Shown here: positions 1 to 50,632 of the stretch, one piece after another
Numbering within the stretch: the first letter of the stretch is position 1
Layout of the letters: every line of letters starts with the position of its first letter
The notes under the pieces: generated by a model
Seen by the model: only the letters and a program-made list of their open reading frames with translations
What the model was told of the DNA's origin: nothing
Databases searched by the model: none
Program-made: the position numbers and the translations under genes
Source of the DNA: a virus
Length of the DNA stretch: 64,000 nt
Strand: one strand, 5' to 3'
IMG/VR virus record: IMGVR_UViG_3300029951_000013
Location: 1 to 64,000 of that record

Positions 1-1
1 C

Positions 2-118
2 GCGCCGTCGGGATCTGAGGTCGAAGCCGTCGTCAAGGCAGCGCGAACGCTCGCCGACCAGCGACGCAAGGCGGAGATGACCACGCAGGGATCGAGGCTG
101 GCCGATGACCAGCGCTGA
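2..118 (+). CDS. 3' end of an upstream gene (partial)
   Basis: An open frame enters from the left edge and stops at TGA 116-118. The visible tail (38 residues) is charged and helical-looking, containing the stretch ARTLADQRRKAEM. It overlaps the ATG of the next gene by 14 bases, which suggests translational coupling in one rightward operon. Too little is visible to name it. Confidence 0.5.
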   Translation, partial: APSGSEVEAVVKAARTLADQRRKAEMTTQGSRLADDQR

Positions 119-2453
119 CGACTTCCTCGGCCTGGGCCAGCCGCACGATGCCACCGCGCCCGGTCCGTGGTTCCCCGCTCGCCACTCCGGCGAGTGCGGC
201 ACCTGCTTCATGGAGTTCGAGGAGGGCGACACAATCCGGGCCGACGGCGAGGGCGGCTGGGAGGCGCAGGACCACGGGCACGACGAGGAGATCCGACACA
301 CCGACGCACCGCGCGTCCAGGTGCTGGAGCCGGTCCCGACCGCGCCAGGAGAACAGAACGACCGCACACCCGACCACCGACCAGAGGACGAGACCGTGAA
401 CGAGGATGCGCAGAGCGAGCTGGACCAGGACGAGGAGCGGCTGGCCGTGGCGAAGTCGGACGGGAAGGTGCAGTGCTCGCTGTGCCCGCGCCGGTTCGTG
501 CCGACCAAGAGCGGCAAGGTGCGCAGTCACAAGGCGCTGGATGCTGTCACCGGCCGATCGCTGGAGGACGTCTGCGACGGCAGCGGCGAACCGCCGCGCG
601 AAGTGCTCGCAACCGCTGCCGCAGAGGGGGAGCCCAACGCCCTCGCACAGATGGAGGCGCGCATCGCCGCCGGCCCCCAGCCGGGCCCGAACCCGCACCG
701 CGCGCCGTTGCCGACCGCGCGGACGGAGGAGGGCTGGGGCGCGCCTGTCGCGCCGCTCCCGATCGCTGATCTGGAGACCGAGGTGGATCCGGACCTCGGC
801 GTGCCGCTCGCGGCTACTGCACCACCCAGCCTGTGGCCGGACTCCGCCCCCGGCGACGACACTCCGCCGTGGGACGAGGCGCAGCAGGTGGACCCCCGCG
901 ACCCCTGGTCCACCTGGAGGAACCGGGCTCAGGCGGTGAAGACCCACGCGGAGGCCGCAGTTCTCTACCGCGAGGCCGTCACTGCCGGAACCACGGAGGC
1001 GTTCCGCACGGAACTGGCCGCACTCATGAACGAGGCACTGGAGCGGCCGGGTCCGGCCGCCGTCGAGGCCGCGACCGGCACGCCGCTGCTCGGCTACGGC
1101 ACCGGCAAGGACCCGGAGGACGACGACCTGGTGGAGCAGCTGGGCCCGTGGATCCAGGCGCAGGAGGTGCGGACCCGCGCGGAGGCGGCGGCCCTGTACG
1201 CCGAGGCCAGGGCCAACGAGGCCTCGCCCGCACAGCTGGCCGCCCTGGCCGAGGTGATGGGCAGGGCACTGGAGCGTACGGTGCCCGCTCCCCGGGCTGC
1301 CACCGTGGAGGCCGCACCCGCCGCGCTGAAGGAGCAGTCCGTGTCCACTGTCGACACCGCCGCGCAGGACTTCCTGGCCACAGCTGCCGCCGAGCAGCCC
1401 GAGCCGGCCCGGGACCGGTGGGGCCGCTACCTGCTGCTGCACCCGTGCACCGGCCAGCCGCAGGCGTGGACCCGGGCCACGACGTTCGCCAAGAGCTGCG
1501 CCGACACGTACGCCCTGAGCCAGTGGGGCGCCCGGATGACGGTGGTCGGACTGACCAAGCGGGACGACCTGCTAGCCCTGGCCCACGGCAAGGACGTCTC
1601 CAAGGACAAGAAGGCCCTGGACAGGATCGTGGAGGACGCCAAGTCGGCGGCCGGCGACAAGGTGGCCGCCAACAAGGGCACCGCGCTCCACTCCTTCACC
1701 GAGCTGGTCGACACCGGCCGCGGCACCGTGGCGGACGTCCCCGAGGCGCAGCGCGCCGACGTCTCTGCCTACCGGGCGGCGATGGAGGACGCCGGGCTGG
1801 AGGTGGTCCTGGCCGAGCGCATCACGGCGGTCACCAATTTCGACGTGGCCGGGACCTTCGACCGGGTCCTGCGGCTGACCCGGGACCTGCCCGGGATCGG
1901 CCAGGCCGGGGACTACGTCATCGGCGACCTCAAGTCCGGCCGGGACCTGTCCTACGGCTGGGGCGAGATCGCCGTCCAGCTGGCGGTCTACGGCCACGGC
2001 GTCAACGAGGCCGGAGTTTGGGACGCCGTGGCTGGGCGCTGGGAGCGACTGCACCTGACGGTTCGTGAAGATGTCGGCATCGTCATGCACCTCCCGGTCG
2101 GAAAGGCCGAGTGCACGCTGTACCGGGTCGACCTGGCCGAGGGCTGGCGGGCCAGCCGGCTGTGCGCGGACGTCCGCGAGTGGCGCAAGGCGAAGGACCT
2201 GGCCGCGCCGATCAGTGTGGCGGAGGCTGCTCCGTCCATGGCCTCGGTGACCGCGATCGCTCCGGCCCAGTCGGTGGTGCGGCAGCCGTCCTGGGAGGAG
2301 CGCTTCAGCGCGGTGCAGTCGAAGCAGCAGGCCGCCGAGCTGTACGAATCCGCTCGGAGCGACCTAGAGGTTCGCCGGACGCCCGACCGGTTGAAGGGCC
2401 TGGTGGAGCTGGCCCGGCAGCAGCTGGAGAGGCTCAGCGAAAAGGCCGGATGA
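105..2453 (+). CDS. RecB/Cas4-like PD-(D/E)XK exonuclease with zinc motifs and helical repeats
   Basis: A 782-residue protein. The nuclease core lies at about residues 440-690: motif I GTALHSF near 525, the acidic residue in AGTFDR near 582, the D-x-K motif GDLKSG near 606 and the QLAVY motif near 624. This is the RecB-type order, and phage members act as recombination exonucleases. The N-terminus has a CGTC zinc-like motif (about 25-60) and a second Cys/His cluster CSLCPRRF (about 125-155). Three related helical modules of about 45 residues (pattern EAAxLYxEA...LER) occur near 275-325, 350-395 and at the C-terminus. An in-frame GTG at 396 directly follows a copy of the start-associated leader (371-386). 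The zinc N-terminus may therefore be a fused small gene, and a shorter product could start there. An SSB-like gene follows. The nuclease family is well supported; the role is inferred. Confidence 0.75.
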   Translation: MTSADDFLGLGQPHDATAPGPWFPARHSGECGTCFMEFEEGDTIRADGEGGWEAQDHGHDEEIRHTDAPRVQVLEPVPTAPGEQNDRTPDHRPEDETVNEDAQSELDQDEERLAVAKSDGKVQCSLCPRRFVPTKSGKVRSHKALDAVTGRSLEDVCDGSGEPPREVLATAAAEGEPNALAQMEARIAAGPQPGPNPHRAPLPTARTEEGWGAPVAPLPIADLETEVDPDLGVPLAATAPPSLWPDSAPGDDTPPWDEAQQVDPRDPWSTWRNRAQAVKTHAEAAVLYREAVTAGTTEAFRTELAALMNEALERPGPAAVEAATGTPLLGYGTGKDPEDDDLVEQLGPWIQAQEVRTRAEAAALYAEARANEASPAQLAALAEVMGRALERTVPAPRAATVEAAPAALKEQSVSTVDTAAQDFLATAAAEQPEPARDRWGRYLLLHPCTGQPQAWTRATTFAKSCADTYALSQWGARMTVVGLTKRDDLLALAHGKDVSKDKKALDRIVEDAKSAAGDKVAANKGTALHSFTELVDTGRGTVADVPEAQRADVSAYRAAMEDAGLEVVLAERITAVTNFDVAGTFDRVLRLTRDLPGIGQAGDYVIGDLKSGRDLSYGWGEIAVQLAVYGHGVNEAGVWDAVAGRWERLHLTVREDVGIVMHLPVGKAECTLYRVDLAEGWRASRLCADVREWRKAKDLAAPISVAEAAPSMASVTAIAPAQSVVRQPSWEERFSAVQSKQQAAELYESARSDLEVRRTPDRLKGLVELARQQLERLSEKAG
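371..386 (+). promoter_or_regulatory. start-associated leader motif inside the exonuclease gene
   Basis: CGACCACCGACCAGAG followed 9 bases later by an in-frame GTG (396). This is the leader that precedes many genes further right, but here it is itself translated, as if two genes had fused or as an internal start. Confidence 0.4.
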
Positions 2454-5127: not shown

Positions 5128-5774
5128 TGGGCCAGCACCGGACCAACCGCACTCCCCCTCTGACCGTGAGCGTCGCGATACCCACGATCCCCGGGCGCGA
5201 GGCGCTGCTCCGCCGGGCGGTCGCCTCGGTCCACGCCCAGGAGCGCCAGGCCGACGCCATCCTGGTCGAGCGGGACGCCGGGCGCACCGGTGCCGCGCAG
5301 GCCCGGAACCGTCTGCTGGAGCGGTGCACCACCGATGTGGTCGCGTGGCTGGACGACGACGACCTCCTGCGGCCGAACCACCTCAAGGCCTGCCTGAGGG
5401 TCCTGACCAGCAGCCCTGGGACGGACCTCGTCTATCCGAGGCCCAGAATGTCCGGCGGCCAGGACCCCACCGCGACCACCTACCGCGGCCGGTTCCCGGT
5501 CGAGCCCTGGGGCATCCGCTGGCAGCCCGAGCTGGAGCGGCACCTGCGCACCCACGGCTCCTTCATCCCCATGACGCACCTGGTGCGCACCGACGCCGTC
5601 CGCAAGGCAGGCGGCTTCCCCGAGGGCCGCACCCTGCCGACCGGCCGCTACCAGGGAGAGGACGAGCGGTACCTGATCGCGCTGCTGGACACCGGTGCCC
5701 GGTTCGGACACCTGGATGCGGTGACATGGACCTGGACGGTCAACCCGGACAGCACCGCCGGGAGGCCCGCGTGA
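5127..5774 (+). CDS. GT2-like glycosyltransferase
   Basis: 215 residues. The N-terminus VSVAIPTIPGREALLRRAV is the nucleotide-sugar binding strand of GT-A family 2 enzymes. WLDDDDLL near residue 73 supplies the metal-binding DxD. The C-terminal TWTW motif also occurs in the enzyme at 12366, so the two are paralogues. Acceptor and sugar are unknown; modification of a virion protein, host glycan or DNA base are all possible. Confidence 0.7.
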   Translation: MGQHRTNRTPPLTVSVAIPTIPGREALLRRAVASVHAQERQADAILVERDAGRTGAAQARNRLLERCTTDVVAWLDDDDLLRPNHLKACLRVLTSSPGTDLVYPRPRMSGGQDPTATTYRGRFPVEPWGIRWQPELERHLRTHGSFIPMTHLVRTDAVRKAGGFPEGRTLPTGRYQGEDERYLIALLDTGARFGHLDAVTWTWTVNPDSTAGRPA

Positions 5775-6223
5775 ATGCCGCCGTCCGGTTCGCTGCCGCA
5801 TACGCCGCTCTCACCGCCTCGCACAAATTTGCGGATCACTGGATCCAGGTCGACGCGCAGGCCACCGCCAAGGGCGACCCCGGCACAGCAGGGCGTCTTG
5901 CGTGCGCGTCCCATATCGCCACGTACACCGTGACGCAGGGTCTCGCACTGCTGGCTGCCGACAGACTGCTCGGCCTACGTCTCAGCCCGGGACGTACTGC
6001 CGCCGCGCTGGCCGTCTCAGCCGGGACGCACTATGCGGCAGACCGTCAGGCGGGACACTGGCGGGACGAGGCACCACGCGGGGTTGCCCGCCTCGCCACA
6101 GCCACCGGGCACGCGAGCTGGCTCCAACGGGACCCGAATTCCCCCTACCTGCTCGACCAGGCATGGCACGAAGGATGGATCTTCATTGCCGCTCTGGTTG
6201 CAGCAGGACGCGGGACAGGCTGA
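5771..6223 (+). CDS. DUF3307-like small membrane protein
   Basis: 150 residues starting at a GTG inside the previous stop (GTGA). SHKFADHWIQ followed by a helix with SHIATYT and later THYAAD gives the H-x3-D-x3-Q ... H ... H-x3-D pattern of DUF3307-type membrane proteins. Two hydrophobic helices lie near 58-75 and 83-96. The 3' end lies within the GRGACG hexamer-rich stretch. Function unknown. Confidence 0.55.
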   Translation: MNAAVRFAAAYAALTASHKFADHWIQVDAQATAKGDPGTAGRLACASHIATYTVTQGLALLAADRLLGLRLSPGRTAAALAVSAGTHYAADRQAGHWRDEAPRGVARLATATGHASWLQRDPNSPYLLDQAWHEGWIFIAALVAAGRGTG

Positions 6224-6251
6224 GACGCTGGACTGAGACACCGTGGGACAG

Positions 6252-6280
6252 GGCCGGGACGCGCAACGCGTCCCGGCCTT
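6252..6280 (+). terminator. intrinsic terminator-like hairpin
   Basis: A perfect 12-bp stem, GGCCGGGACGCG with CGCGTCCCGGCC, and a 3-base loop, followed by TT. It closes the operon ending at 6223. Both arms carry the hexamer of the surrounding array. Confidence 0.6.
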
Positions 6281-6300
6281 CAATGCGTCCCGGGACTCGC

Positions 6301-6329
6301 TGGACACGGCGTCTCAGTTGGTCTAGGAT
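6301..6329 (+). promoter_or_regulatory. sigma-70-type promoter
   Basis: TGGACA (6301-6306), 17-base spacer, TAGGAT (6324-6329): 5/6 match to the -35 consensus and a typical Streptomyces -10. It follows a terminator and precedes the gene at 6373. Confidence 0.6.
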
Positions 6330-6330
6330 T

Positions 6331-6349
6331 TAACTAAATCGCTTAGTTA
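6331..6349 (+). promoter_or_regulatory. palindromic operator
   Basis: TAACTAA-ATCGC-TTAGTTA is a perfect 7-bp palindrome just downstream of the -10 box, where a bound repressor would block initiation. The left half matches the site at 2456. Confidence 0.5.
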
Positions 6350-6372
6350 CGATCACGGACCAGGAGGACCCC

Positions 6373-7134
6373 ATGGTCAGAGCTGCAGCACGGCTGGAGA
6401 CGCCGAGGTATCGCGCCCTGAGCCGGTCCGTCCGGCAGCGTCTCGCGCCCTACCCCGGCGGACCTGAACGGTGGATCTGGGTTCCAGTGGACCTGGACGG
6501 GCAGTGGGAGCCGCTGGCCCGGGACAGGGCCGCCGCCCCGTCCCTCTGGGAGATCGTCAGGAAGGGTGTCAGCCGGGTCACGGTAGAGATCGACGCCTGC
6601 AACCGGTACCCGGCGGAGCAGTGGGAGGTCGGGGTGATCGGCATCCGTCATCGCACTGAGACCGAGGTCTACACCGGTGCCCGCAACTACGTGCAGAGCC
6701 TCCTACTGTTCCTGGACGTCTCGCTGACACTGGGACAGCGTCCCGGCGACAGCCTGTCGGAGACGCGTCCCAGCGTCCCGTCTTCGGCCGTCCCGTTTCA
6801 GCGCGACGCTGGGACGCGTCCCGGAACGAGGTCGATCGGAGACGTCCCACGTGGGACGCACCCGCCGGTCGTCTACGTGCTGCGCAACGGGACGCGCGTC
6901 AAGATCGGGACGACCACCCACCTGCGCAACAGAGTGCACCGTCTCGCGTTGCGTCTCGATGACGTGGTGTTCGCCATGGACGGCGGCCGGGAACTGGAGC
7001 AGGCGTTGCACCAGCGTTTCGCCGCACAGCGTGTCGGGGACACCGAGTGGTTCACCGAGACGGGCGCTCTGGCAGCCTTCATCGCAACGCACAGCGGTGA
7101 GACGCACCGCGGCGAGACAGGAGTGTCCCAGTGA
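6373..7134 (+). CDS. protein with C-terminal GIY-YIG-like (T5orf172-type) domain
   Basis: 253 residues with AGGAGG 5 bases upstream. The first 115 residues are unrecognised. A Ser/Thr/Arg/Pro-rich linker (about 118-155) coincides with the densest hexamer cluster. The C-terminal part, VVYVLRNGTRVKIGTTTHLRNRV then ELEQALHQRF and EWF, follows the T5orf172/Mug113 form of the GIY-YIG nuclease fold, although the GIY and YIG tripeptides are diverged. It could nick or bind DNA at the repeat array. It overlaps the next gene. Confidence 0.6.
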   Translation: MVRAAARLETPRYRALSRSVRQRLAPYPGGPERWIWVPVDLDGQWEPLARDRAAAPSLWEIVRKGVSRVTVEIDACNRYPAEQWEVGVIGIRHRTETEVYTGARNYVQSLLLFLDVSLTLGQRPGDSLSETRPSVPSSAVPFQRDAGTRPGTRSIGDVPRGTHPPVVYVLRNGTRVKIGTTTHLRNRVHRLALRLDDVVFAMDGGRELEQALHQRFAAQRVGDTEWFTETGALAAFIATHSGETHRGETGVSQ

Positions 7135-8069
7135 TGTGGCGTCGCAAGAACCGTCCCAGCCAGTCGGCTACCGAAACGGAAGCGAAGTCCTACCGGAAGG
7201 ACCGGTTCGTTCGGTCCGCTTCCGAAACGGAGACCGGACTGGGCTGGGTCGATCTGCTGACCGACTGGGGCCGCCCGCTGGTTGCTGCCATCGTCCTGGT
7301 CATGTGCGCCCCCGGAGAGCATTTCCTGGCTCGGCTCGCGGGTTGGAACCAGTGGCTGGCCTGGGGCATGCCCGCTGTCCTGACTGCCTACGCGGGCATC
7401 GCCGCCGTCGTAGCAGCCAAACGGCCTCGGAAGACCGAAGGCAAGGCCACCGCCGTCGCCGGCGCGGTCGTTTCCGTCCTGCTGGCTATGGCTGCCCAGC
7501 CGGTGGCGCACCTGCTGATGCTGACCGGTCCTTGGGACACTCGGCACACCGTCACGCTGGTCGTCTCGTGCATTCCGTCCCTGGTGCTGGGACACCTGCT
7601 CCACCTCGCGGCGTCCCAGAAATCGAAGCGCGCCCCGTCCCAGCGTCGCACCGCAGTCGTCCCGTCCCAGAACGGCGTCGCAGCCGCAGCGTCTCCGGGA
7701 CGCGACGCCGTCTCAGCATCCGTGTCTCGCCGAGCTGTCTCTGAGACGCCTCGGGCCGATAAGCGTCTCAGCACTGAGACGCCGCTCGCGCAGATCGAAG
7801 GTGTCCCCGAGACGCCGAGTGTTGCGGAGACGCTGTCCCACTTTCCGGCTGGGACGGGGAGCGTCTCGGAGGACGACCTCCTCACCACGGCTGAGGCGGC
7901 GCAAGCTGCGTCCCAGGCGCGCGGTGAGACGGTCAAGCCGTCCACGGTCCGCACCTGGAAGAGCCGGGGTCACCTCACCCCGGCAGTCGATGAGGACATG
8001 ACGCTCTACCGTCGCGGCGACGTTCTGGCCTACGCGACACGCAACACCGTCCCGGTCACCGGCGACTGA
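7131..8069 (+). CDS. DUF2637/Spd-like membrane protein with C-terminal HTH
   Basis: 312 residues from GTG 7131 (ATG 7134 is the alternative). Hydrophobic helices at about 45-62, 70-87, 100-118 and 130-150 resemble DUF2637 membrane proteins found in Streptomyces conjugative plasmids. A long Ser/Thr/Glu linker (about 165-245) repeats ETP/SET because the hexamer GAGACG recurs in the DNA. The tail LLTTAEAAQ...VKPSTVRTWKSRG is a MerR/HTH_17-type helix-turn-helix. A membrane-anchored DNA-binding partner of the downstream translocase is inferred. Confidence 0.55.
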   Translation: MMWRRKNRPSQSATETEAKSYRKDRFVRSASETETGLGWVDLLTDWGRPLVAAIVLVMCAPGEHFLARLAGWNQWLAWGMPAVLTAYAGIAAVVAAKRPRKTEGKATAVAGAVVSVLLAMAAQPVAHLLMLTGPWDTRHTVTLVVSCIPSLVLGHLLHLAASQKSKRAPSQRRTAVVPSQNGVAAAASPGRDAVSASVSRRAVSETPRADKRLSTETPLAQIEGVPETPSVAETLSHFPAGTGSVSEDDLLTTAEAAQAASQARGETVKPSTVRTWKSRGHLTPAVDEDMTLYRRGDVLAYATRNTVPVTGD

Positions 8070-8107
8070 GACGCACTCGACCATCTGACCAGAGAGCAGG
8101 CCGACCA

Positions 8108-8539
8108 ATGACCACGCCGTCCATGACCAAGAACGCCGCTCCGCAACAGCAGGGCAACACCGGCTCCAGCCGTCTCAACGCGCTGATCCAGGCGCTGGAG
8201 ACGGTGCAGATCGAGAACCAGTACGACCTGCACGAGTTCTGCGAGGCGCTGCGGGGCCTGGGCCACAGGCTCGCGGTGGAGACCATGATGGGCTCCCACG
8301 AGCTGGAGGCCGGGCTCAAGGAGCAGGCCAAGGCGGACGCCACTCTCGGTATCCCGGGCTTCGACTCGCGCCGGGCCATCCGGGGCACGATCCGCCAGTT
8401 CAAGTCCTGTGCGGACCACTTCGCCTCGGCGGCCGGGTGCGCCGCCGCCGGCTGGACCTCCTTCGAGAAGAACTTCGACCAGGCCCTGTCCCGCAAGCCG
8501 AAGGCCGCCAAGCGCGGCGGCTTCAAGATCGAGGGGTGA
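8108..8539 (+). CDS. hypothetical protein of the transfer block
   Basis: 143 residues, mostly helical with a basic tail RKPKAAKRGGFKIEG. Not recognised. It lies between the Spd-like and translocase genes, 9 bases from the latter, so co-expression and an accessory role in DNA transfer are likely. The upstream leader GACCATCTGACCAGAGAG is a diverged form of the start-associated motif. Confidence 0.5.
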   Translation: MTTPSMTKNAAPQQQGNTGSSRLNALIQALETVQIENQYDLHEFCEALRGLGHRLAVETMMGSHELEAGLKEQAKADATLGIPGFDSRRAIRGTIRQFKSCADHFASAAGCAAAGWTSFEKNFDQALSRKPKAAKRGGFKIEG

Positions 8540-8548
8540 GGTGCGGAC

Positions 8549-10576
8549 ATGACTGCCAAGATCGTCAATCACGTCGAGGAGAAGGTCCGAGAGAACAGCG
8601 CGCCGTGGCTGACCTGCGCGGCAGCCATGCCCGTCGCCTTCGTCACGCACGCCGCCTGGGGTGGGGACCCGGCCATGCAGGACGTCATCGCCGCCAGCGT
8701 GCCGGTCATGGCGGGGTGGACCTACCACACCTGGAGCCGCCGCCACGAGCACACCCGGGCACTGGCCACGATCATCGCGGCCTCCGTCACCGGTTGGACG
8801 GCGCTGGCCACCTCCATCTCCCCGTGGACCCCCGGCATGGTGGATTCCTGGTTCATCGGGGGCACCCTGCTCAGCATCATGTGGAACACCCGGCACCTGG
8901 CCCACAAGCCCGCTGCCGAGAGCGACAGGACTTCGGCGCGCGAGGATGGCCTGACCGAGGCCGTAGGCGGCTCGTTGAAGGGCAGCAAGGTCCGCAACAT
9001 CAAGACCAAGCTGGGTCGCGTCGAAGCGGACATCCAGCTCAGCCCAGGTGAGACGGTCGACGGCGTCCAGATGGACAAGGGCCGGATCGCCTCCGTCGCC
9101 AAGGTGGGGACTGAGGAGGTCTCCGTCATCGGCGAGAGGGGCCGGGCCGACCGCCTCAAACTGGTCTTCCAGGCCAACAGCACTCTGGAGCGAGTGGTGC
9201 GCTGGAAAGGCCCGTCCGCTCCGGGGAAGTCCATCGCGGACGCCCCGCTACGGATCGGCGAGCGGGCCGACGGCAGTCCGCTGGAGCTGTGGATCGTCGG
9301 CAAGGACGACGACGAGGACCCCCGATCCCTCCCGCACACCCTGGTCACAGGCATGACAGGCTCCGGCAAGACTGAGACCGTCAAGACAGCGATCATCGAC
9401 ATGCGGTCCCGCACCGACGTGGTCCCGGTGGTCGGAGACCCGGCCAAGTTCGCCCAGTCCTTCGGCGAGATCGCCGACATGCTGGGTATCGCGGCCGTCA
9501 ACAAGCAGCAGTGCGCCCAGCTGATCCGGAACCTGCCCGGAACCATCGCCTACCGCGCCGAACTGCTGGGCAACCTGGTCCGCTCGGACGGCGGGATCGG
9601 CTATCCCCAGTGGGAGCCGGAGTGCTGGACCGAACACGGCATCCCGCTGGTGTTCATCGACATCGAGGAAGCCACCGACATGGTGGGCGAGGACATGGAC
9701 GAGCCGCTGCGGAAGGCGCGTTCGGTCGGACTCCCCCTATCGGTGTCCTTGCAGGTCGCGGTGTACCGCAACCTGGCCCGGGAGACCCGCGGCCAGTTCG
9801 CCAATGCCCTCGCGCACGGCTGCAAGGAAGACCTGGACGCCAAGTTCGCCCTGTCCTCGGCCACGCGTGAGGCGGGGGCCGACCCGACCAAGTGGGGCGC
9901 CGACAGCCCGGGCTCGCTGTACGCCGAGCTGATCGGCACGCCGGTCGAGAAGTGGCCGGTGGAGGCCCGGAACTACCGCTTGACCAGGGAGGAGAAGCAG
10001 GCGGAGAAGGAAGCCAGCCGGGCGACCTGGGCCACCCTCGACCCGGGAACCGCCATGGTCCTGGGTCGGGGCATCCCAATGCCGGACGCGAAGATCACCA
10101 CCATGCTGCCGCCGGTTCCGACCGACGTACCGGCCACGGCTTACCCGGCTGGAATGGCGATGCTGCACAGCCTGGCAGGGGGCACGGCTGAGGAGCCGGA
10201 AGAGCCCGCCACCGACCTGACCAGGGTCGACACCGAAGAAGGAGACATGGACATCACCCGGAAGCTGGCCCGGCCCACCGGGGAGCCGGTCGCCCTGTGC
10301 GGCCCCTCCGAGAAGGTGCGCATGACCACCGATGCCGCCCGCGCCCTGGTCGAGCAGCGGATCGACGTGCTGGAGGCCAGCAACCGGATGGAGGTCGGCT
10401 ACGACGACCTGGCCGACCTGGCCAGTCTGACCGGGCGCCGCCCTAACTGGGTCTACGACGAACTCCACCGGCTGGTCGAGTCGGGCCGCCTCAAGGAGGG
10501 CGCGAGCGCCAAGCCGCCGTACCTGATCTGCGGCAGCGGCAAGGTGCTCCAGTTCCAGGGCCACGGGTCACGGTGA
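8549..10576 (+). CDS. TraB/FtsK-SpoIIIE-type DNA translocase
   Basis: 675 residues. Up to four hydrophobic helices lie in residues 15-115, then the motor domain with Walker A GMTGSGKTE (about 267-275) and Walker B VFIDIEEATDM (about 367-377). A C-terminal winged-helix-like segment follows (about 610-665, DLADLASLTGRRPNWVYDEL). This is the architecture of the Streptomyces conjugation protein TraB (membrane anchor, hexameric dsDNA pump, DNA-recognising winged helix) and of AICE Tra proteins. Together with the Spd-like gene and the adjacent array it suggests double-stranded DNA transfer or segregation. Phage packaging is handled by the separate terminase at 59-62 kb. Confidence 0.75.
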   Translation: MTAKIVNHVEEKVRENSAPWLTCAAAMPVAFVTHAAWGGDPAMQDVIAASVPVMAGWTYHTWSRRHEHTRALATIIAASVTGWTALATSISPWTPGMVDSWFIGGTLLSIMWNTRHLAHKPAAESDRTSAREDGLTEAVGGSLKGSKVRNIKTKLGRVEADIQLSPGETVDGVQMDKGRIASVAKVGTEEVSVIGERGRADRLKLVFQANSTLERVVRWKGPSAPGKSIADAPLRIGERADGSPLELWIVGKDDDEDPRSLPHTLVTGMTGSGKTETVKTAIIDMRSRTDVVPVVGDPAKFAQSFGEIADMLGIAAVNKQQCAQLIRNLPGTIAYRAELLGNLVRSDGGIGYPQWEPECWTEHGIPLVFIDIEEATDMVGEDMDEPLRKARSVGLPLSVSLQVAVYRNLARETRGQFANALAHGCKEDLDAKFALSSATREAGADPTKWGADSPGSLYAELIGTPVEKWPVEARNYRLTREEKQAEKEASRATWATLDPGTAMVLGRGIPMPDAKITTMLPPVPTDVPATAYPAGMAMLHSLAGGTAEEPEEPATDLTRVDTEEGDMDITRKLARPTGEPVALCGPSEKVRMTTDAARALVEQRIDVLEASNRMEVGYDDLADLASLTGRRPNWVYDELHRLVESGRLKEGASAKPPYLICGSGKVLQFQGHGSR

Positions 10577-10583
10577 GTTGACG

Positions 10584-10619
10584 CCCTCTCGTACACGGCT
10601 CCGGTCGTGTTCGGGAGAG
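10584..10619 (+). terminator. possible weak terminator hairpin
   Basis: CTCTCG and ACACG pair with CGTGT and CGGGAG around GCTCCGGT just after the translocase stop. The stem is interrupted and has no T-run. The 238-base gap to 10815 otherwise shows only a CCGAAACGGA motif, also present at 7171 and 7222. Confidence 0.3.
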
Positions 10620-10814
10620 TGGCAATCCGCCACATATCCGGACATTACGGCACCGGAAACTGAACCAGTCTCGTTCAGGGACAAATGATCACAGACCAGG
10701 ATCTTACGGCGTGTCCGTTCGGTACGTCCGGAGCGCCGGAAACCGCCTCTGACCTTAGACAGTCATGTGTTTCCGTTCGATGCCGTGCGCCGAAACGGAG
10801 AGGACCGAACTTCC

Positions 10815-11027
10815 ATGATCCGCTTTCTTGCCGCAGCCGTCCACGGAGCCGCCGCTCTGGCGCTCCTGCTGATAGCCGCCGCAGCGCTGACCGCCATGAG
10901 CGCGGGCTGGGGCTTCCTCGCCCTGGCGCTGTGCGTCGTCTTCGCCGACCAGCTCCTGCTCTGGCCGCTGTGGGCCGCCACCGGCCGCGACCCGGGCTGG
11001 CACCCGGTACGCGGCTGGATCCGGTGA
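10815..11027 (+). CDS. small membrane protein
   Basis: 70 residues with two strongly hydrophobic helices (about 3-25 and 31-52) and a short polar tail. Unrecognised. Its stop overlaps the next GTG. Small hydrophobic proteins beside a Tra-type translocase resemble the Spd plasmid-spread proteins, which is an inference from context only. Confidence 0.5.
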   Translation: MIRFLAAAVHGAAALALLLIAAAALTAMSAGWGFLALALCVVFADQLLLWPLWAATGRDPGWHPVRGWIR

Positions 11028-11143
11028 CGCGCTGGCGGCCCGACTCCCACAAGGGCGGCCGTCGGGCCTCCAAGGCGGGGATCTTCCTCGGCCGCACGAT
11101 CCTCGTCCTGTGCTTCGTCCTGCTCCCCTTCGTCCACCACTGA
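11024..11143 (+). CDS. 39-residue membrane peptide
   Basis: GTG start inside the previous stop (GTGA). A basic N-terminus (RWRPDSHKGGRRASK) is followed by one hydrophobic helix ILVLCFVLLPF. The coupling and the clean signal-anchor pattern argue for a real gene. Function unknown; possibly part of the Spd-like set. Confidence 0.45.
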   Translation: MTRWRPDSHKGGRRASKAGIFLGRTILVLCFVLLPFVHH

Positions 11144-11155
11144 AAGGAACGACCC

Positions 11156-11662
11156 GTGACCACTGACCAGAACGCCGACCGCCTCCCGGTACGCACTGCC
11201 GACCCCGGCCCGCTGGCGCAGTTCGACCGGCGCGGCTTCCCGCTCCTGCCGCTGCCGGAGCCCGACGGGGTTATGAACGGCACCGGCCCGGAGCAGCACG
11301 TCCACATCCACCACCACTACGCCTCCGAGGCTCTGACACAGCAGCCGGTCCGATCGGACGACCAAGCGGGCTGGCTGCTGCTCAACCGGATGGCGCCGTA
11401 CTTCATCGCCGCCGCCCTGGTGGTCTTCCTCGTCGGCGGCGTCATCGCGGTTCTGGCCTACGTCTTCACCTTCGTCATGGCCGTGCTGGTCGTCCTGATT
11501 CACAGCCTGGTCGCTGTCACGGTCACCGCGGTCGTCGCCCTGGGCGGGGTCGCGCTGCTGGCCGGGGTCCTGCGGCCCCTGTTCACCGGCCCGAGCATTA
11601 CCGTGCAGGGGAGCAGGAACCGGGTCGACTCGGCCCCCCTGTCCCGGAACGGAGCGAAGTGA
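11156..11662 (+). CDS. two-helix membrane protein with a His cluster
   Basis: 168 residues from GTG with GAAAGGAACG upstream. A soluble N-terminus holds HVHIHHHY (about 40-47), then two long hydrophobic segments (about 83-110 and 112-140). His-rich membrane proteins of this kind occur in Streptomyces plasmids and ICEs. It closes the transfer-like block and overlaps the next gene by GTGA. Metal binding is possible but untested. Confidence 0.55.
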   Translation: MTTDQNADRLPVRTADPGPLAQFDRRGFPLLPLPEPDGVMNGTGPEQHVHIHHHYASEALTQQPVRSDDQAGWLLLNRMAPYFIAAALVVFLVGGVIAVLAYVFTFVMAVLVVLIHSLVAVTVTAVVALGGVALLAGVLRPLFTGPSITVQGSRNRVDSAPLSRNGAK

Positions 11663-32376: not shown

Positions 32377-35300
32377 TCACGGCCCCGTCAGGGACCGCAG
32401 GCGGCCCTTTTGCTTGGCGGCCTGGAGTGCGCTGATCATCCAGTTCTCCAGCTCCTGCTGGCTGCCGATGGGCCCGTGGAAGTGGAAGTTGTAGGTGTCT
32501 CCGCCGCCCGCCGACTCGCCGGGGCCGACGACCCGCTCCGGCTTGCCGGTGCCGTTGTGGGCCACCGTCGTGCCGGGCATGAGCCAGCCGCCCTTGTCGT
32601 ACCAGTTGTCGGCGACCTCGTGGGACCAGGCCGCCGCCGGACTGCCGTACCGCTGGGCGATGTAGTCCTCGCCCCAGGCGACCTGGGCCTTGTAGTCTCC
32701 GAGTGCGTACGGGTGGCCGTGGCCGAGCGCCTGGGGGATTCCGTAGGCTCCTGAGCTGGCGTTCACCGCATTGGGGTTCCACCCGCTCTCCTGGTTCCAG
32801 AGCTTGATCAGCGGGCCCATCTGGTTGGACCCCCAGCCGTGGCCGGCCAGCAGGCTCTGTGCGAACTGCTGGATGGGGCCCACGGCGGTCCCGGAGAAGC
32901 CTCCGGAGTTGGTCGTCATCGCCGCGTACAGCGAGGACGCACTGGTCTGCGCGAGCTGGGAGACGGCCGACAGGACGGCTGCGCTGATCTGGGTGGCCGT
33001 GGGGCGTGCCACACGGACGTCGAAGCCGCCGACCGGGCCGCCGGCGGCGAAGGCGGGCAGTGTCCCGGCCACGGCCGCGCCGCGCATGTTCGCCACGGCT
33101 CCGTGGCCGCCCGCCGACTGCACCTCGGCAGCCGTCCACATGTGCTCTCCGTTGGAGCCCAGCATCACCACGCTGTCCGAGGTGGCCGTACCGGGGCCGC
33201 GCACGGGGCCGCCGCCGGCCAGCCCGGGCAGGCCCTTCTTGCCGGTGTTCGCCGCGGCGGCGAAGTCCACCGACGCGGTGAAGGTCTTGTTCCGGATCCC
33301 GCCCATGGAGGCGTTCACATCGTTCTTGAACGAGTTGATCGCCGCCGCCGCCGTCTTCAGCTTCCCGCCCAGGCCGGGCACCCAGCCGAAGGCGTCTGCG
33401 GCCCCCTTGACGATGACCTCGGCCACCTCCAGCCACAGGTCGATGATGAAGTTGAAGTACGGCTCCAGGACTTTCGACCACATGAACTTGGCGGCGGTCT
33501 CAATTCCTGAGAAGGTATCCTCGACTATCGAGCGGAAGGTCTGGCTGTGCTCCCAGGCCTCGTAGAAGCCGACCCCCAGGGCGACCAGTGCGATGACCAC
33601 AAGTCCGATGGGGTTGGCGTCCAGGACTACGTCCAGTGCGCCCTGCGCGATCGACAGCGCCCCGGTAGCGATAGTGGCGACTCCCTGGGCCCCTGCGAGG
33701 ACAAGCGTCTTTGCAGCAGCCAGAGCCGTTCCGTCAGCCAGGGCGGTCATCGCTCCGGCGAGGCCCTCCCAGATAGCGATCCCGATAAGGCGGACCCGGA
33801 GCACCAGCAGGCTGTCGTTGAACAGGTACGTCTTAACCGCGGCCAGGGCAGTCCCGTCGGCCACGGCGGTCACGGCCCCGGCGATGCCGTCCCACACGGC
33901 CATCGTGATCAGCCGGCCGCGCAGGACGAGCAGGCTGTCATCGAAGAGGTACGTCTTCACGGCGGCCAGAGCGGTGCCGTCGGCCAGGTTGGTGACCGCG
34001 GTGGTGATCCCGTCCCACACGGATACCGCGATCAGCCTGCCGCGCAGAACGACCATGGAGTTGCCCAGGTTGAACACCGCGGTGGAGATGCCGTCCCAGA
34101 CGGCCATGCCGATCAGCCGGCCGCGCAGGACGAGCATCGTGTTGCCCAGATTGGTGACCGCAGTGGTGATCCCGTCCCACACTGCGATGGCGATGAGCTT
34201 GCCGCGCAGCACGAACATGCTGTCGCCTACGCCGCCGACCACACCGGCGAGGTACGTCCATGCGGCAGAGACGGTCCCGCGCAGTTTCGTCGCTCCGGAG
34301 GACAGGCTGTCACTGATGATCAGCCATCGGAGGTACATCGTGTCCATCACGCCCTGGACCGCGGCTACCCCGCCCTGGATCCCGGACCAGATGAGGGCGG
34401 ACTGCTGGAACGGGAACTTGACGATGCTGACAGCCAGACTGGTGATCGCCATGATTGGCTTGATCACCGCGAGAGCGGTCAGCCGGACTTCCAGCGGGAT
34501 GAGGGCCAGTTCGACAAAGTTGTCGATTGCACCCTTGTTGGTGTCGATGAACTGCGACAGGTGCACCAGGGCCGGTCCGAGTGTGTTCGCCAGGATCCCG
34601 GCGATGCTCTCGATGGCCTGGAACCCGGTGCCTCCCAGGTAGAGCAGCACGGGGGTGGCGGCGACCGACAGGTTGGTGAATGCGGTGCCTACGTCCTGGG
34701 CTGCGGTCGCGAAGTCCAGGAGGATCTTCTGGGTCTGGGAGCCGAAGGACTTCCCCAGCTGATCCGCTATGGACGTACTGGTCAGCGGCATCCCGGACAG
34801 GCCCCCGGCCAGCGGCAGTCCGACCGGGGCCTTGGCCGAGGACAGGTCCGTGTTGGTGGGGGCCTTCGGTGCCAGGTTCGAGCTGAAGGTCCCGAACAGG
34901 GTGTTGGGGTCGACCAGGGCGGCTGCCTTCGCCTTGGTCTGCGTCAGGCTGCCGATGAAGCCGTTCAGGAACCCCTCAGCGACGTGCGTGTCCTGCTCCA
35001 GCTGACTGACCGGGATCAGGTTGCTCAGGTCCGAGGTGAAACGGGCCAGCAGGGGGAGGCCGGACTCGTTGACGAACGAGAAGAACTGGGTGGTGACCGG
35101 GATCAGCTTCTCGCCGATCGAGATGGCCGCCGACTGGACGTTGCTCTCGAAGATCTTGATCTGCGCCGACATGGTCGCCTGCTGCGCGGCCTCGGCGGCA
35201 GCCAGGTTGCCCGACGTTGACTGGATCTGCACCAGTTTCTTCTGGAGGGTCGAGTAGTTGTTGACCATCGTCAGGATGGCCGAACTCGACCGACCGCCGC

Positions 35301-36156
35301 CGAACGCCTTGCTCAGCAGGATGGCCTGCTGGGACAGCGACAGGCCCGACTTGTCCAGGGCCGTCTTCAGCAGGCCGATGGTGCCGACCAGGCCCGCCGG
35401 GGAGCGCATCTCGTTGGCCAGCTGGAGGCCCGTCAGGCCGATCGTGGCCAGCTGCTTGGACGCGACGGAGGACGGGGCCGCCAGCAGGGACAGGCTCATC
35501 TTGAGCCTGGTGGCCGCGTCGGTGGCCGGGACGCCCTCGTCCGTCATCAGCGCGAGGGACGCGCCGATCTGGGACAGGCTCACGCCGAACGTCTTGGCGG
35601 CGGGCAGGATCCCGGTGCCGATGGCGGAGACGAAATCCGTCATCTTCATGTTGCCCGCGCCGATGATGGCGTTGACAGTCCCGGCAGCCATGGCGAAGGT
35701 CTGCGCCCCGGCGATGCCCGAACGCCAGGCCCCGGCCAGTGCGTTGGTCGTGGCCTCCAGGTTGCTGCCGCCGACCGCCGCCAGGTCGGACGCCTGCTTC
35801 AGGTCGACCATCGCCTGGGTGTTGTCCAGGCCCACGGACTTGAGGTGGTACAGCGCCTCGGCGAGCTGGTCGGGCCCCTGCTGGACGTCCTTCATGCCGA
35901 GCACAGCGGTGGTCAGCGTCTTGACGTCCTTGGCGGACCCGCCTGCCTGGGTCTGGATCGTCTTCATGACGTTGTTGAAGGTGTTCGCCATCACCACGGT
36001 GGTGGCCGCCGCGGCGCCGAGCGCCAGGACACCGACGGCCGCCCCGGCGGCGACTTTGCCGAACCCGCCCAGGGACTCCTCCGCGGCGGCGGTGTCGGCC
36101 GTCATGGTGATGTACCCCATGCCGAGCAGCGTGCCGCGCCCGATGCTAAGCGCCAC
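32377..36156 (-). CDS. tail tape measure protein with lytic transglycosylase-like domain
   Basis: 1259 residues. Long helical and hydrophobic stretches follow the N-terminal phage tail tape measure domain (about 60-270). A mid-protein tandem repeat lies near 645-810 (see 33700-34225). The C-terminal KLWNQESGWNPNAVNASSGAYGIPQ (about 1130-1155) is the SLT/lysozyme-like E-S-x-W ... S-x-G-x-x-G signature used to breach peptidoglycan during DNA entry. At about 1.5 A per residue the tail would be near 190 nm. Overlaps the chaperone frame by 11 bases. Confidence 0.85.
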   Translation of the reverse strand: MALSIGRGTLLGMGYITMTADTAAAEESLGGFGKVAAGAAVGVLALGAAAATTVVMANTFNNVMKTIQTQAGGSAKDVKTLTTAVLGMKDVQQGPDQLAEALYHLKSVGLDNTQAMVDLKQASDLAAVGGSNLEATTNALAGAWRSGIAGAQTFAMAAGTVNAIIGAGNMKMTDFVSAIGTGILPAAKTFGVSLSQIGASLALMTDEGVPATDAATRLKMSLSLLAAPSSVASKQLATIGLTGLQLANEMRSPAGLVGTIGLLKTALDKSGLSLSQQAILLSKAFGGGRSSSAILTMVNNYSTLQKKLVQIQSTSGNLAAAEAAQQATMSAQIKIFESNVQSAAISIGEKLIPVTTQFFSFVNESGLPLLARFTSDLSNLIPVSQLEQDTHVAEGFLNGFIGSLTQTKAKAAALVDPNTLFGTFSSNLAPKAPTNTDLSSAKAPVGLPLAGGLSGMPLTSTSIADQLGKSFGSQTQKILLDFATAAQDVGTAFTNLSVAATPVLLYLGGTGFQAIESIAGILANTLGPALVHLSQFIDTNKGAIDNFVELALIPLEVRLTALAVIKPIMAITSLAVSIVKFPFQQSALIWSGIQGGVAAVQGVMDTMYLRWLIISDSLSSGATKLRGTVSAAWTYLAGVVGGVGDSMFVLRGKLIAIAVWDGITTAVTNLGNTMLVLRGRLIGMAVWDGISTAVFNLGNSMVVLRGRLIAVSVWDGITTAVTNLADGTALAAVKTYLFDDSLLVLRGRLITMAVWDGIAGAVTAVADGTALAAVKTYLFNDSLLVLRVRLIGIAIWEGLAGAMTALADGTALAAAKTLVLAGAQGVATIATGALSIAQGALDVVLDANPIGLVVIALVALGVGFYEAWEHSQTFRSIVEDTFSGIETAAKFMWSKVLEPYFNFIIDLWLEVAEVIVKGAADAFGWVPGLGGKLKTAAAAINSFKNDVNASMGGIRNKTFTASVDFAAAANTGKKGLPGLAGGGPVRGPGTATSDSVVMLGSNGEHMWTAAEVQSAGGHGAVANMRGAAVAGTLPAFAAGGPVGGFDVRVARPTATQISAAVLSAVSQLAQTSASSLYAAMTTNSGGFSGTAVGPIQQFAQSLLAGHGWGSNQMGPLIKLWNQESGWNPNAVNASSGAYGIPQALGHGHPYALGDYKAQVAWGEDYIAQRYGSPAAAWSHEVADNWYDKGGWLMPGTTVAHNGTGKPERVVGPGESAGGGDTYNFHFHGPIGSQQELENWMISALQAAKQKGRLRSLTGP
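33700..34225 (-). repeat. tandem repeats in the tape measure gene
   Basis: Five copies of a module with VLRGRLI-x3-VWDGI-x2-AV. The first three are about 26 residues long; the last units gain a 15-residue insert with DGTALAAVKTYLF. Recent unequal duplication changing tail length is the simple explanation. Confidence 0.7.
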
Positions 36157-45150: not shown

Positions 45151-46953
45151 TCAGAGGTTGGGCTGGCCGCCGGTAGCGAGGCTGGCGACGCCCTGGCCGC
45201 TGACCATGAAGGTCAGCGTGTAGAGGCGGGACTCGTGGCCGACCTTGGCCACCAGGTGCGCCTCTTCTGCCCAGGCCGCGGTGAAGTCGTTCTCCGCGTT
45301 GAGGATGGAGTCCCGGATCACGCCGAGGTCCAGGCTCAGACCCGTGCCGTGCAGGAACGTCCCGGCGGCGTACATCATGAACTGCACCGTGGTCGGCCAC
45401 GCGGTCATCTGGGCTGCGGCCTGCCCGAACTGGCTGGCACCGCGCACCTGCCAGTCGCTGACGAACTGGACGGCCACGCCGCGGGTGGCGAACATGGCGA
45501 TGATCGCCGAGTCCGGGACCGACAGGGTGGAGTCGTCGCCGTAGGTGCGCCAGGTCAGGTCGGCCCGGATCGCAGCCAGCACCCACGTGGGGAGCACAAC
45601 CTCCAGGACGGCAGTGTCGCTCATGCCGAACCGGTTGCGGTAGTCGACCGCAGCCAGCTCGATGCCGTTCATGACGCCCTGGAAGGCGGGGACGGTAGCG
45701 CTGGCCGGAAGGGCTGCGGTGACGGTGGACGCGGCGGACATCAGCGAGATGAGCCTGGCGTTGATGACGTGAGCGTAGGCGTTGCGCAGCAGCCGCAGGA
45801 AGTTCTGCGCGGCCTCGGGGTACGCGCTGTCGGTCAGGTTGCCCGCGGTGAGCGTGATGCCGTAGACCTCAAGGCGCGAGTTGCTGAAGCTGGCGCAGGG
45901 TACCCGCAGGGTCGGCTTGTTGATCGAGCCGGTGACGGTGTTGATGTCGTCGGTCTCGCTCCACAGCCACGGGTCGCTCGTGTTGGCGAAGGTGGCCGCG
46001 AAACCGCCCATGCCGGTCGCCGGGTTGCTCCCGCCTGCGGTGAAGAACACGTCCTTGATGGACGGGCTGGTCGGGAATTGGATGCCGCCACGGCTGATCC
46101 CGACGGTCGGCAGGTCGATGATCCCGCTCGGCACGTCGGAGATGTTGAACAGGTCGTAGTAGATCTCGCTGGGCGCGCACCATCCGCCGCCGGCAAGGAG
46201 TGCCTGCTGCTTGTCGCCGCCGGTCAGCTCCCGGACCAGGCGGTCGATCTGCGCCGGGCCCGTGCGCTCGTCCACCGTGTGGGTGAACTGGTTCTGGATC
46301 GAGGCGACGGGGTAGCGCGCGGCGCCCTGGCCCTGGGCCGTGGTCGGGATGTTGCTGGCCCGCTGGATGAACGCGTCAGCCATCGCCTCCATCGAGACGA
46401 CCACGCCGCCGGAGGCCACGCCGCGCTTCGGAATATCCACCGAGGCAGTGATCACCTTGAGGTTCGCCTTGGCCGGGGCGACGCCCGGGTCCGGCGCGAA
46501 CTGCCTCGAGGCGCTGAGGCTGGCGGCCTGGCGGACCACGTCCGCCGGGCTGTTGCCGCCGCGTCCGCTGCCCATCGCGGCGACCAGGCCCTGGGTGACA
46601 CCGCGGGCTGCCGCAGCAGCGACGGCCTCCAGGTCGCCGGTGGTCTGCGATGCGGCTGCCGGATCGGCCGGCCCGTGGACCCGCTCGCTCAGCTTGGCCA
46701 TCGCCTGCGCGGCGGTGTCCTTGGCCGCGGTGGCCTTCAGTTCGGCACGCACGTCGCGGACGCGCAGCTCCTCGTTGATCCGGTCCAGGTCGTCGGCCAC
46801 CGAAGTGGCCTGCTGGAGGATCTCCGGGGTCAGGTCGTCCTGGCCGTGGACCCGCTCGAACGCGGCGACAGCCTGGTCCCGCAGGGCGGCCAGTTCGGCG
46901 TCACCCATGAGGGTGAGTTCGAGAGGGCAGGAAAAGACTTCGTCTCCCGACAC
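45151..46953 (-). CDS. major capsid protein (HK97 fold)
   Basis: 600 residues from GTG 46953 (GGAGG 5 bases upstream). The N-terminal about 120 residues are a coiled-coil delta/scaffold domain removed by protease in this family. LLAGGGWCAPSEIYYDLF (about 265-285) is the hallmark of actinophage HK97-type capsids. Later segments show the expected PVPTVG/beta-strand pattern and an FWxE-like end. It follows the MuF-protease gene, as is usual. Confidence 0.85.
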   Translation of the reverse strand: MSGDEVFSCPLELTLMGDAELAALRDQAVAAFERVHGQDDLTPEILQQATSVADDLDRINEELRVRDVRAELKATAAKDTAAQAMAKLSERVHGPADPAAASQTTGDLEAVAAAAARGVTQGLVAAMGSGRGGNSPADVVRQAASLSASRQFAPDPGVAPAKANLKVITASVDIPKRGVASGGVVVSMEAMADAFIQRASNIPTTAQGQGAARYPVASIQNQFTHTVDERTGPAQIDRLVRELTGGDKQQALLAGGGWCAPSEIYYDLFNISDVPSGIIDLPTVGISRGGIQFPTSPSIKDVFFTAGGSNPATGMGGFAATFANTSDPWLWSETDDINTVTGSINKPTLRVPCASFSNSRLEVYGITLTAGNLTDSAYPEAAQNFLRLLRNAYAHVINARLISLMSAASTVTAALPASATVPAFQGVMNGIELAAVDYRNRFGMSDTAVLEVVLPTWVLAAIRADLTWRTYGDDSTLSVPDSAIIAMFATRGVAVQFVSDWQVRGASQFGQAAAQMTAWPTTVQFMMYAAGTFLHGTGLSLDLGVIRDSILNAENDFTAAWAEEAHLVAKVGHESRLYTLTFMVSGQGVASLATGGQPNL

Positions 46954-47204: not shown

Positions 47205-47318
47205 CTAGACCGTGCGCTCGGTGAAGCGGAAGATCCGGGTGCCGAACTGCCACCAGGACGCCTTCCGCCGGGTGTTGCTGGCCACATCGAAGTACTCGGT
47301 GCGGTAGTAACCGATCAT
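47205..47318 (-). CDS. 37-residue basic aromatic peptide
   Basis: ATG 47318 overlaps the stop of the protease fusion (ATGA). It encodes MIGYYRTEYFDVASNTRRKA then WWQFGTRIFRFTERTV. Its coupling and unusual aromatic/basic content make it credible. Function unknown. Confidence 0.5.
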   Translation of the reverse strand: MIGYYRTEYFDVASNTRRKASWWQFGTRIFRFTERTV

Positions 47319-50300: not shown

Positions 50301-50632
50301 TGGTCCTGGTCGCCGGGGTACTGGTGCAGGGCGGCGATGATGTTCTGCTGCACTTCGGGCGGGAACGCCGAGGCGTCACCGCCGAGGAACATCAGCGTGC
50401 AGTGCAGCTCAGCCGCCACCTCGCCGCCCTTGACCGCGAGCCGCTTGGCATCGGCTGGAGTCGGCATCAGTGCGATCATGGCCCCGGAATGGGCGTCCGC
50501 GCCGGCGTCGGACGCCAGCATCCGGCGGCCGTGGGCGGACTGTACGTGGTGGCCGCGCTGATGGAGCTGCTCGACCACCGGCTGGCCGTCCCGGGTGCCG
50601 ATACGCAATCGGGACGGTGTTCCCTCAGACAT
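47315..50632 (-). CDS. 2H phosphoesterase - MuF - capsid maturation protease fusion
   Basis: 1105 residues with three parts. Residues about 50-210 look like a 2H phosphoesterase (LigT type): first HxT motif HCTL at 77-80, second at HIC 186-188 where Thr is replaced by Cys. Residues about 240-520 are the MuF-type minor head domain, with DDRTCQPCQSVDGKAF and GNCRGTI. After a linker, about 680-1080 is an HK97-type prohead protease (GREFAPDAL ... GRFVRGVSIDAD). MuF-protease fusions are known in actinophages. The added 2H domain could process RNA ends or cyclic-nucleotide signals after ejection. Confidence 0.75.
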   Translation of the reverse strand: MSEGTPSRLRIGTRDGQPVVEQLHQRGHHVQSAHGRRMLASDAGADAHSGAMIALMPTPADAKRLAVKGGEVAAELHCTLMFLGGDASAFPPEVQQNIIAALHQYPGDQDQVTTKVFGIGHWNGDSPGASWVWNVGDNPDADAADCPLDDFHQLAAMAVQDALMLHQQRGGDPVPLPDQHSPWVAHICAAYTDDLSLASTLEAKLGPVTFDRIRVSFGNEDTDIPLTASLAATGTAITAAAKPKRAKRPDEFRRLPNATELAARVDFAAHQRSWQQAVNGALTDWQAVTADWRTQIKDQILAGGTDALSTLSITTDTAADTLYGRMRTTAQAAGVAQQQEAEQQGVHVPPWSLEPGRVAALAGLDLLRQVASIAADTMGNRLVQAAKHRAMGLFSVLSGIRLASEVELALQGLSDAFDKQWLGEAMSAAQNAGRIAVLEAAPPATYYATEILDDRTCQPCQSVDGKAFNSLDDAEDAYPGGGYADCLGGGNCRGTIYAVWDQGMLASAEEGTPVTTVVEEELGGKPNKGTAKDKRLSKNKPDGSTAPSGMSDSGGAPCAECPDDAAHFGSSNTVSDAPWDGSPSNFTPVQYKTASAACDPGNGTPEEECFLPHHDPDGELNRAGLAAAAGRFSSLTGHSPAAVAAAKSHLVAHYNAIKEPVPDNLKAAAATGAPAIQPAPVIAPGGPTAPWSGVLAVEGVTTGDGREFAPDALTWQDPPIPLRWNIQDSHGGEPRTVAVNVGRIDTIQRVGNQIQATGVLDLSDPNGVAARDKIAGRFVRGVSIDADSIGDADIEMVWPERNNEGDDEEDIFAMLFAQPEKVIFHGGQIRAATLCDIPAFKDAYIQLTDADTGAVVAGGAMDPAEWEAAQVEEPDETGAVTASLGVYTPPAEWFADPGLSVPTPITVSDSGRIYGHAAQWGTCHIGQTGQCVQPPREDYHAYYMTGEVGLDDGTTASVGQITVGTGHASLNVGAQAAKEHYDHTGWAVADVVVGNDVHGIWVAGSIRADADAGKVAALRAAGQVSGDWRRIGGKLRLVGLLAVNVPGFPVPRMRARVSAGAQVALVAAGQPTVAPGVAGPSEHDLDQMAMRRVLEMLAKRVKADA

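Follow-up and report, generated by a model that had tools for sequence, protein, structure and literature searches.

The closest described systems are Streptomyces plasmids that carry traA, traB and spd genes. In pWTY27, the clt locus was footprinted as four TGACACC repeats at the end of the tra gene (PMC3583192). According to PMC4170104, which says little on the spd genes, the molecular function of most proteins from these plasmids is unknown; the same paper reports non-specific DNA binding for SpdB2 of pSVH1. Transfer genes in a phage have precedents, since pCQ4 and four IMG/VR records form a traA-traB phage lineage of their own, and pZL12, a Streptomyces plasmid-phage that combines phage genes with a transfer module, provides an experimental case that is known here by citation alone (transfer as cited in PMC3583192). 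In this study, we analyzed a 64,000-nt stretch (the window), which is the first 64 kb of the 88,895-bp (88.9 kb) IMG/VR record IMGVR_UViG_3300029951_000013, and in particular a rightward gene block at 6373-11662.

Gene content of the phage and its transfer block

The record is a temperate phage of Streptomyces from soil. The initial annotation had placed the block among phage genes, and the virion, integrase and terminase genes were confirmed. On the minus strand lie the genes for the tail tape measure protein (32377-36156; phrog_991, E=2e-27), the major capsid protein, which served as the phage-lineage marker (45151-46953; phrog_777, E=2.2e-110), a large protein with matches to head-maturation-protease and portal families (47315-50521), the portal protein (50625-52490; phrog_776, E=3.2e-120) and an intein-interrupted terminase large subunit (59227-61599; PF03237, E=1.1e-13, with Hint_2 and Intein_splicing matches). 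The plus strand encodes a tyrosine-type integrase (52931-53833; phrog_1, E=1.1e-11) and a GH25-type endolysin (62707-63675; PF01183, E=5.2e-21). An HNH_3 endonuclease ORF (59384-60046, minus strand, E=6.2e-13) lies within the intein-coding stretch of the terminase gene, on the same strand and in another frame. No tRNA gene was found in the window.

Beyond the window, the record encodes a family A DNA polymerase, a D5-type primase and a helicase. By match to the Streptomyces replicon pS1D4-14.2, a ParB-like relative was located at record positions 70828-71421; ParA had no match in the record. Record positions 75001-76000 (L002 11001-12000), overlapping the D5-type primase gene, hold nine CCACAC/GTGTGG in 1 kb, possibly the iterons of an origin. 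The two record ends have 724 nt in common at 83% identity (window 1-716 and record 88001-88698), a diverged repeat at which assembly may have stopped. Because of this diverged repeat, and because the gene order of pS1D4-14.2 runs on across both ends, the contig is probably near-complete.

The central gene of the block (8549-10576, plus strand) encodes TraB, an FtsK-type double-stranded DNA translocase of 675 aa. The comparison of this product with TraB profiles gave a full-length match, residues 10-651 aligning to positions 3-624 of the 639 of NCBIfam NF041214 (E=1.9e-108); the Walker A motif GMTGSGKTE and the C-terminal winged helix (residues 594-660) described earlier were borne out. The score was 364 bits, below the curated cut-off of 800, so that this TraB is taken as a divergent branch. 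It also matched phrog_24831 (E=2.6e-70). The best structural matches of its AF2 model (mean pLDDT 81) were FtsK motors (2iut, E=8e-16), followed by the conjugation ATPase TcpA. The membrane anchor that had been proposed is visible in the model as four helices in residues 2-118, but these fall below a simple hydropathy threshold. Among 52 plasmid records matching this TraB, 46 were from Streptomyces; none of 50,697 phage genome records matched, and a sequence search of the PDB returned no relatives. The full-length profile match thus supports a plasmid-type TraB, and the earlier proposal of a TraA/TraB/Spd-type module in a phage genome is supported as well. In pS1D4-14.2 (6723-7172; L005) and several related loci, among them G012, G017, G020 and G027, there are small stand-alone proteins whose similarity to TraB is confined to its C-terminal winged helix; they are encoded directly downstream of traB and in some loci also 2-5 kb upstream. 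No such protein was found in the window.

Directly upstream of traB, a position kept in relatives, lies traA (8108-8539, plus strand; NF041213, E=1.1e-12, below the curated cut-off), which the initial annotation had overlooked. The gene at 6373-7134 (plus strand) had been read as encoding a membrane protein; its product is instead a T5orf172/MUG113-type (GIY-YIG-like) protein (PF13455, E=3.8e-7; PF10544, E=7e-5), with a start at 6373 or, according to the gene caller, at 6487. Downstream of traB, a 168-aa protein with three transmembrane helices (11156-11662, plus strand; cluster c3) is kept throughout the lineage, in agreement with the earlier call of small membrane proteins. A 152-aa ORF at 10685-11143 was probably miscalled: two plus-strand genes in this interval, encoding proteins of 70 aa with two transmembrane helices (10815-11027) and of 39 aa with one (11024-11143), are supported by coding score and by relatives in L009.

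A candidate clt region was sought next to traB. In many relatives, direct TGTCAG repeats with helical spacing, about 10-12 bp apart, begin at the traB stop codon (in L013 at +6, 18, 28, 41, 53, 63, 74 and 87), and pWTY27 has TGTCAG/TGACA-type repeats at the same place. Several relatives that lack TGTCA have other downstream repeats (CGTGATCA in L030; CTGATCA in L021 and L031), and these also differ in the residues around the TraB recognition helix. In the window, the candidate region at 10577-10814 contains GTTC[GA]G, which occurs five times in 330 bp versus 0.54 expected, weak evidence as the motif was picked after inspection; the weak candidate GTTCGG is common to the window and L009.

The module is an old, vertically inherited part of the phage lineage. 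When only the capsid protein was used as query, six records of at least 75 kb were found, and all six encode TraB. When records from either search route were combined, TraB was present in 22 of 22 that belong to the capsid clade and reach at least 75 kb; since most of the 22 were found through TraB, a fair test comes only from the six capsid-found records. Across 23 phages, capsid distances agreed with those of TraB (Mantel r=0.80, p=2e-4). Given TraB in all six records and this co-divergence, the module is no odd hybrid, and the phage-AICE hybrid suggested by the initial annotation is neither needed nor supported, in a comparison that covered plasmid and phage proteins.

Isolate relatives are pS1D4-14.2, S. 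africanus NRRL B-24243 and Streptomyces sp. NRRL S-455, each of which is a replicon of its own or an entire contig of 93-99 kb; the genome-contig search yielded only two loci. pS1D4-14.2 carries genes for ParA, ParB and a P4-type primase. As stand-alone Streptomyces contigs, these relatives are probable phage-plasmids, and the lineage probably lives in this form, the extrachromosomal state being seen in relatives only.

A motif array in the gene for an SpdB-like membrane protein

The gene at 7131-8069 (plus strand), upstream of traA, encodes a membrane protein with four transmembrane helices, a disordered linker (residues 167-242) and a confidently modeled winged helix (residues 245-305) as a DNA-binding-type tail. 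The four helices and the winged helix agree with the earlier description of a DUF2637/Spd-like protein with an HTH tail. The family name fared less well: the product has no Pfam DUF2637 match, and it is filed as SpdB-like only, by position and architecture. Genes in the same position in L037 and L038 do match DUF2637 (1.7e-5 and 6e-13, respectively). In pWTY27, an annotated DUF2637 gene precedes traA, from which a single gene separates it; this DUF2637 gene is homologous to pJV1 666-1781 and pSN22 5361-6116, which are taken to be the spdB genes of those plasmids. The best fold match of the winged helix, which is BldC/MerR-like, was BldC on DNA (6ama; probability 0.97, although the whole-chain E is 0.48). 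A sequence search of the PDB gave no relatives of the winged helix and only a chance-level match for the protein.

The most unusual feature of the locus, likewise overlooked at first, is an array at 6010-8200. It comprises about 51 GRGACG sites (consensus CYGRGACGC), distributed over both strands, and runs through the T5orf172/MUG113-type and SpdB-like genes and beyond. Site density is 26 and 21 per kb in 6487-7134 and 7134-8069, versus a record mean of 2.7. Expected counts were obtained by keeping the proteins and resampling synonymous codons from the record's own usage. The observed 18 and 20 sites compare with 4.3 and 6.3 expected and exceed all 2000 draws in each case; the array is selected at the DNA level, beyond codon expectation. 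Site spacing shows no sharp period. The array-rich stretch of the membrane-protein gene encodes the disordered linker, whose amino acid sequence can vary freely. The array gene is repeatedly accompanied by a T5orf172/MUG113 (GIY-YIG-type) domain: this is separate in the window, fused to the array gene in L017 (8180-9478) and encoded upstream of it in L035.

In an unbiased 6-mer scan, nearly all traB loci proved to have a dense array on the upstream side of traB, with motifs that vary by element (GGGACA, CGGACA, AGGACA, GRGACG, CGARAG, GCTGAGC, TCCGGA, CGGAAC, CGGACC, TGAGCG and TGAGAC). In most loci, the bulk of the array falls within a single gene, which encodes the membrane protein and immediately precedes traA. 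A stricter test permuted codons within each gene, and a gene passed when at most 1 of 200 permutations reached the observed value. Phage array genes passed in 31 of 33 cases (L022 and L025 failed), as did 8 of 14 plasmid DUF2637/spdB genes; control genes had a mean z of 1.1 with a single outlier, the traB gene of L012. There, the array extends into traB itself, with 26 GGGACA sites (z=11.4). Similar arrays were thus found in the DUF2637/spdB genes of most plasmids tested. The spdB gene of pIJ101 has no array, nor does the DUF2637 gene of CP107821, which lacks an adjacent annotated traB. Arrays in spdB genes were not described in the literature searched, from which subscription papers were mostly absent.

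The motif follows the tail of the protein whose gene carries it. With motif classes assigned by hand, the nearest neighbor of the C-terminal 70 residues of the array gene product had the same motif in 25 of 25 phages, versus 20 for the membrane part, 19 each for TraB, TraA and the c3 protein, and 18 for the TraB winged helix. When plasmids were added, the tail predicted 32 of 35, versus 28 each for TraB and the membrane part (partial Mantel p=0.0005). The window, L030, L032 and L035 have GRGACG and one BldC-like domain in common, although the TraB proteins of the latter three are only 37-39% identical to that of the window and, in L030 and L032, the membrane part shows no relationship to that of the window protein. 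L035 was a true prediction: its motif was known before its gene, which then showed the window's tail domain. G032-G034, retrieved afterwards, fit the same pairing. In plasmids, a change from GTGAAC to GTGAGC accompanies, by eye, a change from GWVS to GWVA in the tail helix. As the same gene holds both array and tail, linkage may inflate the tracking; the persistence of motifs among unalignable linkers makes linkage as the sole cause less likely. The array sites are probably bound by the product of 7131-8069 itself.

Proposed role of the block and its alternatives

We propose that the block is a Streptomyces-type double-stranded DNA transfer module, conserved in a temperate phage lineage, with an SpdB-like tether on its own array. 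By homology of TraB, TraB and TraA would assemble on clt-like repeats downstream of traB, and TraB would pump double-stranded element DNA across septa or into neighboring hyphae. The SpdB-like product would hold element DNA at the membrane. Because the motif tracks the tail and the tail resembles BldC, a cooperative-row repeat binder, the winged-helix tail may bind about 50 CYGRGACGC sites in and beside its own gene and so coat about 2 kb next to traB. The element could then colonize the mycelium without lysis and still make virions. Gene identities, lineage conservation, DNA-level selection of the array and motif-tail tracking speak for this reading. On the other side stand the scores of TraA and TraB below their NCBIfam cut-offs, the lack of a clear clt in the window, the possible contribution of linkage to the tracking, the failure of L022 and L025 in the strict codon test, the missing array in pIJ101 spdB, the non-specific DNA binding reported for SpdB2 of pSVH1 and the E value of the BldC match. 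We put its probability at roughly 0.6. A wider proposal is more tentative, a little short of even odds: the SpdB-type proteins of TraB elements, in phages and classical conjugative plasmids alike, would be self-targeted tethers whose swappable tails recognize an element-specific array within their own gene, each giving its element a private membrane address, and the phage lineage would have used this together with TraB as a second, non-lytic route of spread.

The block may instead serve segregation. Membrane protein and array would then form a centromere-like anchor, and TraB would act at septa like FtsK/SpoIIIE, delivering phage-plasmid DNA to compartments and prespores with no movement between individuals. 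The FtsK-type motor fold of TraB is in line with this, as are two precedents: SpdA2 of pIJ101, which binds sites within the gene that encodes it, influences stability but not transfer (PMC4170104), and RacA, a MerR-like protein of similar fold, binds DNA in an architectural role (PMC5859096). The present data fit both transfer and pure segregation. Transfer between hyphae is preferred because TraA, the clt-like repeats and the spdB homology are transfer features, and the related pS1D4-14.2 already has a ParA-ParB pair; we therefore consider segregation unlikely.

The array could also be the clt of TraB itself, an enlarged pump-loading zone where the membrane protein is merely located. Its position next to traB would suit such a role, and clt loci are clusters of short repeats (PMC3583192). 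In L036-L039, however, the TraB recognition helices are nearly identical and the downstream TGACA repeats are shared, yet there are four different upstream motifs, and the TraB winged helix was the worst predictor of the motif. With the upstream motifs changing while TraB helix and downstream repeats stay constant, we ruled this reading out as highly improbable. A last possibility is that the arrays merely result from repetition in the linker peptides and have no DNA function. This reading draws on the disorder of the linker and on CP108973, where all nine sites share one frame, but is scarcely credible given that sites occupy both strands and several frames and also lie beyond the gene; codon resampling largely refutes it for phages, 31 of 33 genes exceeding permutation at the 199/200 level or better, and it is still possible for some plasmids.

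Comparison with known systems

The Streptomyces plasmid-phage pCQ4 (NC_019307) resembles the window in carrying traA-traB, with terminase and portal a few genes downstream. It differs in that its TraB is only 28% identical and its IMG/VR relatives lack the window's capsid. pS1D4-14.2 (NZ_CP041606, from Streptomyces sp. S1D4-14) belongs to the same lineage as the window (capsid 57%, portal 56% and TraB 41% identical) and has TraA and the array gene in the same order, whereas its motif is CGARAG and its array protein ends in another C-terminal domain; its traB is annotated only as a hypothetical protein. pWTY27, pJV1 and pSN22 share with the window TraA-TraB and a DUF2637/spdB gene bearing a motif array, the signal in pSN22 being weaker or absent by the strict codon test. 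Unlike the window, they have other motifs and no virion set, pWTY27 having one annotated capsid-like gene.

BldC of Streptomyces is the protein most like the winged helix of the window protein, by a weak fold match (6ama, E 0.48). It oligomerizes on direct repeats of variable number in cooperative rows (PMC5859096). In contrast to the window protein, BldC is a 68-aa regulator with no membrane part and reads AATTxxxx(C). For the SpdB type, a self-encoded array that changes in step with the DNA-binding tail offers a concrete, testable role. A phage with traA-traB was already known; what is new is the dense array in the membrane-protein gene before traA.
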